Shown here piece after piece: positions 54,859 through 61,930 of a stretch of 64,000 nucleotides of DNA. The DNA is from Lactobacillus johnsonii ATCC 33200 (lineage in GTDB: Bacteria > Bacillota > Bacilli > Lactobacillales > Lactobacillaceae). The notes beneath the pieces are model-generated. The model did not search any database. It was not told where the DNA came from and worked only from the letters and a program-made list of their open reading frames with translations. Both the position numbers and the translations under genes were made by a program. The stretch's first letter is position 1, and the number at the start of each line of letters is the position of its first letter. The stretch is taken from assembly GCF_000159355.1 (NCBI RefSeq), contig NZ_GG670120.1:954349-1018348 (forward strand), given 5' to 3'.

Positions 54859-56069
54859 ATGTCTAAAAAAAGCATAAATATTCTAATTTTTAGTGGCATA
54901 TGGAGTTTTATTATTGGTATTTTAACTGCTTTATACCTCAACCTAATCAATTATGTTATTGACTTTATTTGGGGTTACTTTAATCATCATAATAATTTTT
55001 CTTTGCGTCCCGCTTATCCCTTTCTTATTTGTATACCATTTGGAATAACTATTGGTTTCTTAGTAAAGAAATTAGGTTCCTATCCTTTAACGATTGAAGA
55101 AGTATTACATGATATTCGGAAAAGTGGAAAACTTGATTATCATTCTTGGTGGAAATCTTTTACTTTAGGGCTTTTATCATTTGGAGCTGGCGGAAGTATT
55201 GGGCCAGAAGCTTCCACCACTGTTCTTACTTCGGGGATGATAAATTGGCTCGGAGATAAAATTAGATTGATGACTATTCATTACAAAAGCTGGGTTCATT
55301 TTTGGCAAATAGGCATTGATAAAGATACTCTATTGCAATCCCCAAAGTTTAGTGAGCTTTTTAGAACTAAAAATCAAAAAAATGGTTCATCACCTTTAAT
55401 ATTTTAATTGGATTAATTGGAACAATTTTGATCTTTAAACTTTTTCCTGAAGAAGGGGCATTCGGAATTCATGAACGTCCAATTCACTGGTCATGGACTA
55501 TTCTCTGGTATAGTCTAATTCCTCTTATAGGTGGGATACTTTTTGCATATTTCTTCTTATATTTAGAAAAAATATTTACTAGAGTAGAAACTTGGGCCTT
55601 ACCAGCACTTTTAAAAGCAACCTTATGGGGCATTGTACTAAGTGTTTTAACTTTAGTAACTGATTACGCACTCTTTTCAGGCGAATTTCATATTGTTCCA
55701 TTTTCTAAAACTGCTCTTTCCTATTCGCCATTATTTTTACTATTAATTGCTCTAATAAAAACAATTTCTACCCATGCTGGATTTGCAATGGGATGGCGTG
55801 GGGGTAAAATTTTTCCAGCAATTTTTGCTAGTGTCGCGGTTGGTGCTGCAATTTCTCAATTCATCCCTATTCAGCCCGCAATTACTGTCTCCTTAGCAGT
55901 AGTAGCTAGCATTACTATTATTTTAGAAAAGCCACTCCTTACCGTTGTCTTGTTAATTTTTTTATTACCAATTTCTTTAGCTCCACTTATTTTTATTACT
56001 GCCTATATAGTTATGTTGATACATAAGTTTCTTCTGAAGAAAATTGGCTTAAAATCCTTAATTTACTAA
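54859..56069 (+). pseudogene. ClC family chloride channel/antiporter, frameshifted
   Basis: The N-terminal half has the selectivity motif GAGGSIGPEAS and the C-terminal half TMHs including HAGFAMGWRGGKIFPA. At about 55377-55384 the run CAAAAAAATGG is one A short. Adding one A joins TKNQKKWFITFNILIG to the second half, giving about 403 residues. Both halves are open, so the break is a single poly-A event. Confidence 0.85.
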
Positions 56070-56636: not shown

Positions 56637-57269
56637 TTAAATTTCTTTCAATGCTTGATCAATTGGTGTGTTTCCACTACTCATTGGAATAACCTTATCA
56701 ATAGTATTTGGATATTTTAGAATTTCAGCCAATGTTTTAGCAACATCAGGAATTGGATTTGAGTCAGTTGGACCAGCATCAAGTTTGATTTTGCCTGTTC
56801 CGGTTTCTTCAGTGAGATTCGTAGGCTGCAAAATCGTATATTCAAGATTAGTCGAATCCATTAAATAAGTATCAGCAAAGAATTTAGCAGCTAGATAGTC
56901 CTCAAGACCTGGAATCTTCTTCCATGAGTCTACATCTAAACTAAGCATTGAACTGAGCATAATATAGCGTTTAACACCTGCTTTTTCAGCAGCCATCATA
57001 GTTTTTATTGCTCCCATAGCATCAGTTTGGATAAGGTCCTTACCACGAAATCCAGCCGTAAAGTAAATAGCATCAAAACCTTTTACTTGTTTAGTAATAT
57101 CTTCTACATCAGCATGTAAATCAAGCTTATCAGATATTACACCATCAAGTTTAATAATATTTTCTGGATGACGAGCTGCTGCTGTCACTGTATTACCATC
57201 AGCTACTAAATCTTTAATTAAATCTATAGCTACTCTTCCAGAGCCACCAAAAATAAATATTTTAGCTAT
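56637..57269 (-). pseudogene. NAD(P)-binding SDR-like oxidoreductase with start codon ATG changed to ATA
   Basis: The Rossmann start AKIFIFGGSGRVAIDLIKDL is in frame with the body (FDAIYFTAGF, MLSSMLSLDV, NLEYTILQPTNL), so the protein is a complete ~210-residue NAD(P)H-binding reductase. A very strong GAGGAGG site sits 7 bases before codon ATA (57267-57269), where ATG is expected. The only usual start, GTG 57188, would remove the nucleotide-binding loop. The gene therefore looks silenced by one G to A change. Confidence 0.8.
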
Positions 57270-57340
57270 AATTTTTCCTCCTCGAAAAAACTTACAGCTT
57301 TATAATAGCTTACTTTTTATTAGTAGTCCAAAATTTACAC

Positions 57341-58023: not shown

Positions 58024-58560
58024 TTAACTAGCATAAACTTCATGCTTTAAAATTCCTACATAAGGTAAATTTCTATACAAGCCATTGTAATCTAATCCAT
58101 AACCAACTAAAAACTCATTAGGGGCCTTAAAACCATAATAATCTGCATGAAAATCTACGACACGGGTTTCAGGCTTATCAAGCATAGATACAACTTCTAC
58201 GCTTTTAGCCCCACGTTCTTTCATTATTTCACTAAGTGCTTGCAAAGTACGTCCCGTATCAATAATATCTTCCATAAAAATTACTGGACGATTTGTTACA
58301 TCTGACTTAATATCTTGCGTAATCTTTACTTTTCCTGTGGATTGGCTTCCTTCATAACTAGATGCCTTAATAGGCTCAATAGTTAGCTTAAAACTTAATC
58401 TCTTAATCATATCACTAGCAAAAATCATTGCTCCATTTAAGACTGGAACAATAATTGGCTCTTCATTTTTATATTTTTTATTTAATTCAGCAGCCATTTC
58501 ATCCATACGATTGTTTAAATCATTTTGAGTATACAATACACTTTCGATATCGTTATTCAT
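58024..58560 (-). CDS. hpt: Hypoxanthine phosphoribosyltransferase
   Basis: 178 residues with the PRPP-binding motif VIFMEDIIDTGRTL and the PNEFLVGYGLDYNGLYRNLP C-terminal segment of HPRTs. It makes IMP/GMP from hypoxanthine/guanine and PRPP (purine salvage). GAGG precedes ATG 58560. First gene of a two-gene unit with the amidotransferase. Confidence 0.93.
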   Translation of the reverse strand: MNNDIESVLYTQNDLNNRMDEMAAELNKKYKNEEPIIVPVLNGAMIFASDMIKRLSFKLTIEPIKASSYEGSQSTGKVKITQDIKSDVTNRPVIFMEDIIDTGRTLQALSEIMKERGAKSVEVVSMLDKPETRVVDFHADYYGFKAPNEFLVGYGLDYNGLYRNLPYVGILKHEVYAS

Positions 58561-58951: not shown

Positions 58952-58987
58952 AAAAACCCTCGTTGATCTAAGTCAACGAGGGTTTTT
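58952..58987. terminator. Bidirectional terminator
   Basis: AAAAACCCTCGTTGA and TCAACGAGGGTTTTT form a perfect 15-bp stem, serving the micropeptide gene and the opposing rpoN relict. Confidence 0.93.
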
Positions 58988-58990
58988 GCT

Positions 58991-59498
58991 TTATTTTTGA
59001 TTTCTTTGATAACTATTTTTAATTCCTAGTTTCTTTCGATATTTAGAAATTATTCTACGACTAATTGAAATTTCTTTTTCTTTAAATTTATTTACCAGTT
59101 TCTCATCACTTAATGGTTTTTGGGGATCTTCTAACTTAATAAAATCCTTCAATATTCTTTCAAGTTGATTTGAGTTAAATTACTAATACTTTTTCGTGGA
59201 AACAAGAGCTTTAGACTAAAGACCTTACCTTGGCACTTCTACATATTTATCTTTAATTGCTCTACTTATAGTACTTATTGCTAAATTTAATTCTGTAGCT
59301 GCATCTTCTAATTTTATACTTACTAAATCTTGCTCATTCAGAGAGGACAAATATTTTTCTTGTCGTCTTCCCAAAAATTTCCCTAGATTTAGTAGCGTCT
59401 CTTCACGTTGTTGAATTGCATAATGTAAGTCAGTAAAATCCTTCTTTTGTTTTATAAAATAATCCTTATCTTTTATTTCGCTATCTTTTTGTAGCTCA
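58991..59498 (-). pseudogene. rpoN: C-terminal relict of RNA polymerase sigma-54
   Basis: In two registers the minus strand encodes VELQKDSEIKDKDYF, a segment QQREETLLNLGKFLGRRQEK, the HTH region AISTISRAIKDKYVEVPR, then LEDPQKPLSDEKLVNKF and the RpoN box SRRIISKYRKKLGI (consensus ARRTVAKYRE). These are landmarks of the last half of sigma-54. Stop codons and frame changes lie at about 59140-59235. The N-terminal activator- and core-binding regions are absent: the frame joins a LevR-like activator at about 59498. Confidence 0.78.
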
Positions 59499-60543
59499 AC
59501 AAACTTTTCTTAATTAAACTGTTACCTGAACGTTCAAGCACTGTATTCGGATCAATTAACAAGTTTCCATATTCCGCAAATGTTGGGAGTTCTTCGACCA
59601 TAATATTATTTAAATATAGCTTGATTACGTCACTATTTTCTTGGTCACGGTAAGCAGCTGCACAGGAAACCTTAATGATATTTTTTAAATACCCAATATT
59701 TCCGGGATGCTTAATTTTTAATAAAGTAGATACTACATATTTATCTACTTCAATTTTTCGATTAATTCGACGTGCCTCTTGATAGAAAATATACCGTAGC
59801 AGTTCTAGTCTTTCATCAATTGGACGACTAGCAAAATCGGGCAATTTAACATGTACAGGTACACGCCGTAGAAAAGTAGTTAGAAGAACTTTCTCTGGAT
59901 TTTCAGTGGTTGCCATTACTAGAATTGTCCCTAATCCATAAATGAAAATAGTTTTTCTTGATTTTCACTACTTAAGCGATGTACTTCGTCTAAAAATAAG
60001 TATCCTCCATTTGCCTGCTTAAGAAGTCCATCTTTTGCTTCGTCAGCCCCTGTATAGGCACCTTTTACATAACCAAATAACATACTGGAGACAAGTTCAG
60101 GATTATTCGCATAATCAGCACAATTCAAAACAATATATGGAGCCTCATTACTAATAATTCCTTTGCTCTTAGCTAATTGAGCAATTTTGCTTGCTAAATA
60201 ACTTTTTCCTACCCCCCGAATGACCCGTAATCAAAATGTTTAAACCATCCGGTGGATACATAATTGCTGCTGAGATTTGATCAATAGCATATCTCATTGA
60301 ACCACGATAGCCAATAAAGTCATCAAAATTATGATTCAAATTAGGCATACTACCTTTTTTAGTCCATTTTACTGGTCGCCCAGCAATTTTTTGAATTTTT
60401 TCTTCTCTAAATAATTCATTTAAATAATGACTAACTACCGATCTGGATAAATTTAAGCTATCAGCTAATTGTGCCGTTGTTAGTGCATGATATCATGGCC
60501 AAGCATATTTAAATAAGTTAAGACATTTTTTTCCTTTATCCAT
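59499..60543 (-). pseudogene. LevR/ManR-like sigma-54-dependent activator, N-terminal half only, disrupted
   Basis: An N-terminal HTH (TAQLADSLNLSRSVVSHYL) is followed by an AAA+ domain: Walker A around ITGHSG (60200-60235, one extra G in GGGGGG), the sigma-54 contact loop FGYVKGAYTGAD (GAFTGA-type), Walker B GGYLFLDEVHRL and the sensor region ATTENPEKVLL. Frames break in the A-run near 60523-60530, near 60490, at the G-run, and near 59934 with loss of 10-15 residues. The PRD and EIIA/EIIB domains of LevR are missing; the frame then meets the rpoN tail. Such activators drive mannose-class PTS operons. Confidence 0.75.
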
Positions 60544-60634: not shown

Positions 60635-60946
60635 TTATCTCAAAATTTTTTCAAATGCCTTACTAAAAGATGCTTTTTCCATATCCTTACTAATGAAATA
60701 AATAATGGCTTTTTCTTTAAAAACTGAAAAGGCAATTCGAGCCGATCCAATAGTACCAAGATTTAATCGAAATTCATAAATTTTTTGTCCATTAATTCTT
60801 TTTCTACTAGCCAATTTAATCTTTGTCATCCCAGTGGTAACTTCTTTAACAAGGGCTTTTTCAATTAAATTCTTGATTATCTTTTTTTGCCTATTATATT
60901 TTTTAAAAAAGCTTTTACATCCATGATCATCAAATATTATTCGCAT
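60635..60946 (-). CDS. RelE/ParE-like toxin-fold protein without visible antitoxin
   Basis: 103 residues, strongly basic. The pattern KIYEFRLNLGTIGSARIAFSVF followed by KAIIYFISKDMEKA resembles the beta-sheet core of RelE/HigB-type toxins. No small antitoxin gene is adjacent on either side: upstream is the fba terminator, downstream the activator relict. It may be an orphan toxin or a phage-type (DUF891-like) protein. No terminator follows. Confidence 0.55.
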   Translation of the reverse strand: MRIIFDDHGCKSFFKKYNRQKKIIKNLIEKALVKEVTTGMTKIKLASRKRINGQKIYEFRLNLGTIGSARIAFSVFKEKAIIYFISKDMEKASFSKAFEKILR

Positions 60947-60966
60947 TTTTCCACACTTAAGCCAAT

Positions 60967-60998
60967 AAAAAAAGACCTCAGAAAATGAGGTCTTTTTT
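60967..60998 (-). terminator. Terminator of fba
   Basis: AAAAAAGACCTCA and TGAGGTCTTTTTT form a perfect 13-bp stem with a 5-base loop, 14 bases after the fba stop. Confidence 0.93.
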
Positions 60999-61012
60999 AA
61001 TATAGTTTTTGA

Positions 61013-61930
61013 TTATTCTTCGTTTAATGAAGCTTCATCAAATTGAACTGATGATTCCTTTGTGTCGATTGGTGCAGTACCCATCCATGAAATCATTTCT
61101 TTCATAGAATCAGTAATTGCGTCAGTACCGGCTCTCAAAAGCTTACGTGGGTCATAACCCTTGTTGCCCTTGTCTAAGTCCATCTTGTCTTCGATGTACT
61201 TACGAGTTGCAGCTTGGAATGCTAATTGGAATTCAGTGTTAATGTTAATCTTAGCAATACCTAATTGAATTGCCTTTTCGATTTGGTCTTGAGGAATTCC
61301 TGAACCACCGTGAAGAACAAGCGGTTCGTTTGGAACTGCTTCTGCAATTTCCTTCAAACGATCGAAGTTTAAGCCAGTCCAGCCTTCTGGGTAAACACCG
61401 TGGATGTTACCAATACCACAAGCAAGCTTGTCAACACCAGCAGCAACGAAAGTCTTAGCGTCTTCAACTGATGCTAATTCACCACCATCGGCACCTTGGT
61501 TTTCACCAATTTTACCGATTTCAGCTTCAACAGAGATACCTCTTTCGTGAGCTAACTTAACGATTTCCTTAGTCTTTGCTAAGTTTTCGTCAGTTGGTAA
61601 GTTGTGACCATCAAACATAACTGATGAGTAACCAAGTGCAATACATTCCTTAGCTGATTCAAAGTCACCGTGGTCCAAGTTCAAAATAACTGGAACATCG
61701 ATATCCATGTTGTCCATTTCGTTAAGAACTAAGTCCTTAACAGTCTTGTAACCACCCATGTACTTAGCAGCACCAGTAGAAACTTGAATCAATAAAGGAG
61801 TTCTAGTTTCCTTAGCACCTCTTAAAAGTGCGCGAGTCCATTCAAGGTTGTTAGTGTTGTATGCACCTACAGCGTAGTGGTTTTCACGAGCAGCTTTGAA
61901 AATGTCATTACCATTTACTAAATAAGCCAT
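61013..61930 (-). CDS. fba: Class II fructose-1,6-bisphosphate aldolase
   Basis: A 305-residue zinc aldolase: zinc ligands in LNLDHGD and LVLHGGSG, catalytic Asp in the same loop, and GNIHGVYPEG. It splits fructose-1,6-bisphosphate in glycolysis. AGGAGG precedes ATG 61930. As no lacD is present, this enzyme or a homologue elsewhere might also act on tagatose-1,6-bisphosphate (inference). Codon use is that of a highly expressed gene. Confidence 0.95.
   Translation of the reverse strand: MAYLVNGNDIFKAARENHYAVGAYNTNNLEWTRALLRGAKETRTPLLIQVSTGAAKYMGGYKTVKDLVLNEMDNMDIDVPVILNLDHGDFESAKECIALGYSSVMFDGHNLPTDENLAKTKEIVKLAHERGISVEAEIGKIGENQGADGGELASVEDAKTFVAAGVDKLACGIGNIHGVYPEGWTGLNFDRLKEIAEAVPNEPLVLHGGSGIPQDQIEKAIQLGIAKININTEFQLAFQAATRKYIEDKMDLDKGNKGYDPRKLLRAGTDAITDSMKEMISWMGTAPIDTKESSVQFDEASLNEE

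Follow-up and report, generated by a model that had tools for sequence, protein, structure and literature searches.

A locus in Lactobacillus johnsonii that is very probably the fossil of a sigma-54 module

When part of a sigma-54-dependent activator gene is found running into the end of rpoN, is the arrangement a working regulator or the remains of one, and if the latter, what has been lost? We address this question for a locus in the window, which here means the whole 64,000-nucleotide stretch of Lactobacillus johnsonii ATCC 33200 that was analysed (contig NZ_GG670120.1, positions 954,349 to 1,018,348). Its minus strand from 60543 to 58991 consists of codons 1-362 of a gene for a LevR-type sigma-54 activator, followed by the last ~170 codons of rpoN. 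From sequence comparisons, we conclude that the locus is almost certainly a non-functional fossil of a complete sigma-54 module, made up of LevR, a mannose-class PTS, an MgtC-family protein and RpoN, which was gutted by a 5,730-bp deletion. Literature searches for a report of this locus found none.

The closest relative that keeps the locus among 75 genomes of the genus is G059, with 97.5% nucleotide identity over the flanking genes. Its gene order is fba-orf103-levR(855 aa)-EIIA-EIIB-EIIC-EIID-mgtC-rpoN(422 aa)-hpt, and all of these genes are intact. LevR of G059 has a sigma-54 interaction domain (residues 77-241), an EIIA-man-like domain (506-582) and a PRD (766-850), and its RpoN has an activator-interacting domain (AID, 14-55), a core-binding domain (72-247) and a DNA-binding domain (267-420). 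Alignment to G059, together with Pfam for the two remnants and translation for the 2-bp insertion, gave the following features in the window.

61013..61930, minus strand: fba (fructose-bisphosphate aldolase), flanking gene
60635..60946, minus strand: orf103, flanking gene kept in G059, G023 and G058
59501..60543, minus strand: levR remnant, codons 1-362 of 855 (HTH, AAA+ with GAYTGA loop, lid)
60526..60527, minus strand: 2-bp deletion near the levR start (frameshift)
60492..60493, minus strand: 2-bp insertion (AT) in levR, which gives an in-frame TGA
60212..60217, minus strand: 1-bp insertion (G5 to G6) in the Walker A (P-loop) codons
59931..59933, minus strand: nonsense TAG (TCG in G059, Ser204)
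59922..59923, minus strand: position of a 46-bp deletion that shifts the frame within the AAA+ domain
59501..59509, minus strand: deletion junction, one copy of the 9-bp repeat GAAAAGTTT retained
58991..59509, minus strand: rpoN remnant, ~residues 251-422 of 422 (DNA-binding domain with RpoN box)
59237..59237, minus strand: 1-bp insertion (A) in the rpoN remnant
59168..59171, minus strand: 1-bp deletion (A run) in the rpoN remnant
58952..58987, no strand assigned: terminator-like palindrome 3′ of rpoN, loop inverted relative to G059
58024..58560, minus strand: hpt (phosphoribosyltransferase), flanking gene

Translation of 60543-58991 in all frames of the minus strand yielded, in order, the N-terminal HTH, the AAA+ module, the lid and then the DNA-binding domain of RpoN. 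The AAA+ fragment at 60128-59931 matches Pfam Sigma54_activat (E 1.3e-21) and carries the sigma-54 contact loop; the initial annotation had called this loop GAFTGA-type, and it is present but reads GAYTGA. The remainder of the AAA+ module and the lid lie at 59916-59473. Past the junction, two fragments match Sigma54_DBD (E 1.7e-13 and 1.3e-15), the second of which contains the RpoN-box stretch SRRIISKYRKKLGI. Both parts are ~94-97% identical at the nucleotide level to the real genes of G059, with the same order and the same flanking genes, which judged by alignment is a match far beyond chance. The activator had also been described as running directly into the C-terminal half of RpoN. The order and the RpoN box agree with that description, but the rpoN part covers ~170 of 422 residues, slightly under half, and the levR frame enters rpoN out of frame at the junction and meets a stop after ~10 codons. 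Because the two coding parts are in different frames there, no fusion exists at the protein level, and a LevR-RpoN fusion protein was rejected. The largest open piece is 147 aa, and a further piece of 53 aa carries the RpoN box.

What the locus has lost can be read from the nucleotide alignment. The deletion corresponds to L064 1929-7658 in G059, and both of its ends share the 9-bp direct repeat, one copy of which lies in levR and the other in rpoN. It took five genes and parts of two more, namely the mannose-class PTS with its -24/-12 promoter, the MgtC-family gene, the PTS-sensing EIIA-like and PRD domains of LevR, and the activator-interacting and core-binding domains of RpoN. The alignment thus bears out a large deletion and the absence of both the PRD/EII domains and the rpoN N-terminus, as first proposed. 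The accompanying idea that levR and rpoN had been neighbours does not hold, since EIIA, EIIB, EIIC, EIID and the MgtC-family gene stand between them in G059 and in the more distant relative G021, and all five were removed. The rest of the remnant has decayed as well: it contains 6 indels in ~1.56 kb versus 5 in ~12 kb of flanking DNA, a density ~9 times higher (Fisher p = 6e-4), and argS, orf103, hpt and gat have zero indels relative to G059.

The promoter that was lost is recognizable in the relatives. A -24/-12 site, TGGCACGCTTTTTGCT, lies upstream of EIIA in G059, and a perfect match to TGGCAC-N5-TTGCT is found ~40-45 bp before the EIIA start in G059, G021, G018 and G034. On its 5′ side, G059 has a palindrome with 14-nt arms (AAATAAAGTGTTTA/TAAACACTTTATTT) that is visible too in G021 and G018, and from its position upstream of the -24/-12 site this would be the expected place of the predicted LevR binding site. 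A search of the window's whole genome for the exact motif returned no match. Exact counts per genome are at background (0-6 versus 0-3 in the reversed control) and are not evidence, so that only the site upstream of EIIA is meaningful.

Could another copy of the system still operate in this strain? The genome is 99.99% complete in 32 contigs, and the locus lies inside a 1.03-Mb contig. A whole-genome search gave one Sigma54_DBD match (E 3.2e-32, four in-frame stops) and one strong Sigma54_activat match (E 4e-27, two stops), both at this locus; the other hits to the activator domain have E-values of 5e-10 or worse, too weak to reach the 1e-20 level seen for true activators in the genus. No second rpoN, full-length or otherwise, no RpoN N-terminus and no intact sigma-54 activator was found across the whole genome. 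EIID genes number 4 in the genome, none at this locus, versus 5 in G059. A functional RpoN should have PF00309, PF04963 and PF04552 in one open frame, as the intact G059 protein has all three domains; only PF04552 is left here, in two frames with stops. Despite its GAYTGA loop, LevR lacks what a functional protein should have (an intact AAA+ module, Walker A, GAFTGA, EIIA-like domain and PRD): Walker A is frameshifted, the AAA+ module carries the TAG and the 46-bp deletion, and the PRD and EIIA-like domains are deleted. The locus has the marks of a pseudogene, with homology and synteny to an intact locus in a relative, several disabling lesions and no intact paralogue elsewhere in the genome. 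With neither another rpoN nor an intact enhancer-binding protein present, this genome is not expected to support sigma-54 transcription, and the view of the locus as a relict of a sigma-54 system stands. The effect of the loss on the strain was probably small, as four other mannose-class EIID genes are kept.

The relatives show several outcomes at this site. On the flanking-gene tree G021 clusters with G014 and G033, and it carries this module in the identical position, between orf103 and hpt, so that presence of the module is ancestral in the group. G023, G058 and contig C69 of G070 are missing ~7.34 kb, a stretch that starts upstream of levR and ends at the final nine codons of rpoN. Those nine codons and the terminator are kept as a scar (L153:7095-7606, L154:380-883 and L155:2024-2529), with one junction in the three genomes or bins. 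In G014 and G033 the gap is filled by two unrelated genes, of which G071 has decayed relatives. By these comparisons, one locus presents intact (G059, G021), gutted (the window), short rpoN scar (G023, G058) and gone (G014, G033, G071) states, and the module was lost repeatedly at this site. In the G070 bin the fba-hpt region is present twice, as the divergent copies C9 and C69 (L155, L159), and the bin looks like a mixture of two species.

Elsewhere in the genus rpoN adjoins an aldo/keto-reductase-like gene, and other fossils occur at that site in G019, G050 and G026. G019 (L166:2782-3051) has a mini-RpoN open frame of ~93 aa, in which residues 1-45, the activator-interacting part, are joined in frame to residues 377-422 with the RpoN box. 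Only the last 31 RpoN residues remain in G050, and G026 retains the first 50 together with EIIC-EIID-MgtC. In G073 (L. xujianguonis; L052:11959-14520), levR is split into frames of 100 aa and 703 aa, while rpoN has an open frame of 406 aa; this may be another module at the start of its decay.

Several differences from G059 near the locus are recorded here as separate observations. The terminator hairpins at 58952-58987 and ~60965-61001 align to G059 in inverted orientation (36/36 and 34/37 identical to the G059 reverse complement, respectively), which on the alignment is loop inversion between close relatives. The membrane-channel gene at 54859-56069, which by eye looks chloride-channel-like and encodes 403 aa in G059, is broken in two by a single-nucleotide change within a run of T at 55378, and represents either a pseudogene or a sequencing error. 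An NAD(P)-binding-like gene ending at 56637 has ATA at its start codon (57268-57270) versus ATG in G059.

The remnant might have a new role as a working chimeric regulator, either as a shortened LevR AAA+ protein or as a small DNA-binding peptide with the RpoN box. In favor of this, its 147-aa and 53-aa pieces show low pN/pS against G059, the total divergence between the window and G059 in the remnant still looks constrained (pN/pS 0.07 and 0.13), and the RpoN box is largely kept. However, the low total pN/pS is explained by a recent death of the remnant. Polarised with G021, the window branch alone has 7 non-synonymous (including a stop) to 8 synonymous changes, whereas the G059 branch has 4 to 17 in the same region, though the 15 changes of the window branch are weak evidence for relaxed selection. 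No frame crosses the junction, stops or frameshifts fall in the start/HTH region, in Walker A, in the AAA+ core and twice in rpoN, and the genome offers neither the core-binding domain nor a partner. Nor does any other sampled genome share the gutted arrangement, let alone as a conserved open frame. We consider a working chimera extremely unlikely.

The alternative that the strain has an intact module and that the contig was misjoined at a short repeat draws on the position of the junction at a 9-bp repeat and on the small lesions, up to three of which sit in short homopolymers where sequencing errors are possible. Yet the deleted parts occur nowhere else in the 32 contigs, whether counted by the rpoN N-terminus, the activator or the number of EIID genes, the locus is inside its large contig, and levR has in addition suffered a 46-bp deletion, unrelated to the junction, and a nonsense substitution. 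Neither the stop codon nor either of the two deletions is of the homopolymer-error kind, and the nearby argS, orf103, hpt and gat are free of indels. An artefact therefore has next to no chance of being the explanation. The window might instead reflect a failed or partial acquisition, with G059 having gained the module recently by horizontal transfer, given that the close relatives G023 and G058 have no module at the site. This is highly improbable, since the module occupies this very site in G021 as well, a genome on the opposite side of the group's tree, and the empty sites of G023, G058 and G070:C69 keep the scar of last rpoN codons and terminator, pointing to deletion. On the scar in G023 and G058 and the same-site copy in G021, we also rejected insertion of the cluster into G059.

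Loss of an ancestral module is thus the reading we favor. We hypothesize that before the loss LevR, under control of PTS phosphorylation, would have bound the upstream palindrome and driven RpoN-dependent expression of EIIABCD, most likely as in other Firmicutes, an argument that draws on the known LevR family. In the window's lineage the deletion between the repeats, probably through slippage or short-repeat recombination, removed the 5,730 bp; the leftover ends also bear the frameshifts, the stop codon and the 46-bp deletion. One genome of the window's species was compared.

The initial annotation had placed this fossil in a lineage in which an active sigma-54 is not expected. A 2011 survey fits that view: the lactobacilli it recorded with sigma-54 were limited to L. 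plantarum, P. pentosaceus and L. casei BL23 (PMC3162934). Our counts contradict that expectation: rpoN is intact in 25 of the 75 sampled Lactobacillus genomes, is cut by a contig end in two more, and is over the cut-off in 102 of 301 sampled genomes of the family, about a third. The survey's picture is out of date, and the present result corrects the impression that sigma-54 is nearly absent from Lactobacillus. Within the genus, rpoN and a sigma-54 activator co-occur, with at least one activator in 25 of 27 rpoN-bearing genomes (completeness is only 54% and 68% for the two exceptions). Among 48 rpoN-less genomes, an activator was found only in that of the window, where it is broken, and in G007.

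The G007 protein is the most interesting by-product of this work. This Lactobacillus has no rpoN but encodes an intact 848-aa LevR homologue (L149:6151-8697) where rpoN usually lies, next to the aldo/keto-reductase-like gene. In place of the GAFTGA loop the protein has FGSTKASATQA, 4 residues shorter, and the Walker B DE has become DQ, whereas ten other aligned LevR-type proteins all keep DE and a GA[FY]TGA-type loop (one DAFTGA). The protein is probably a descendant that no longer depends on sigma-54, as with TyrR, DhaR or HupR (PMC3162934).

The window by itself is a well-resolved case of ordinary gene decay, with nothing mechanistically new. What is worth keeping is the repeated loss of a self-contained sigma-54 cassette, together with a LevR lacking GAFTGA in an rpoN-less genome. 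We tentatively speculate that in this one small clade short-repeat deletions at a single locus repeatedly removed activator, promoter, operon and sigma factor as one cassette, in which the sigma factor served little beyond the operon, such that loss of the operon lets the whole sigma-54 system vanish. If so, the clade would document sigma-factor extinction as a natural time series, including a leftover activator re-purposed without sigma-54 in G007. The window is a half-way stage in the loss of a whole transcription system.

In the known LevR/ManR-RpoN systems that control mannose-class PTS genes (the lev operon of B. subtilis, and L. plantarum and L. casei as cited in PMC3162934), the gene set is the same as in the intact relatives: a LevR-type activator with HTH, AAA+, EIIA-like and PRD domains, mannose-class EIIABCD, RpoN, and a -24/-12 promoter before the PTS genes. 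The intact relatives differ in that rpoN ends the PTS gene cluster and is preceded by the MgtC-family gene. The window differs in that the system is broken, its PTS genes, promoter, PRD/EIIA domains and RpoN AID and core-binding domains having been deleted. Loss of rpoN by deletion was also described for Campylobacter jejuni during laboratory evolution (PMC7677240). There too, a sigma-54 gene was deleted in a host-associated lineage; unlike that case, the loss in the window occurred naturally, extends to the activator and the PTS operon as well as rpoN, and leaves an identifiable scar.
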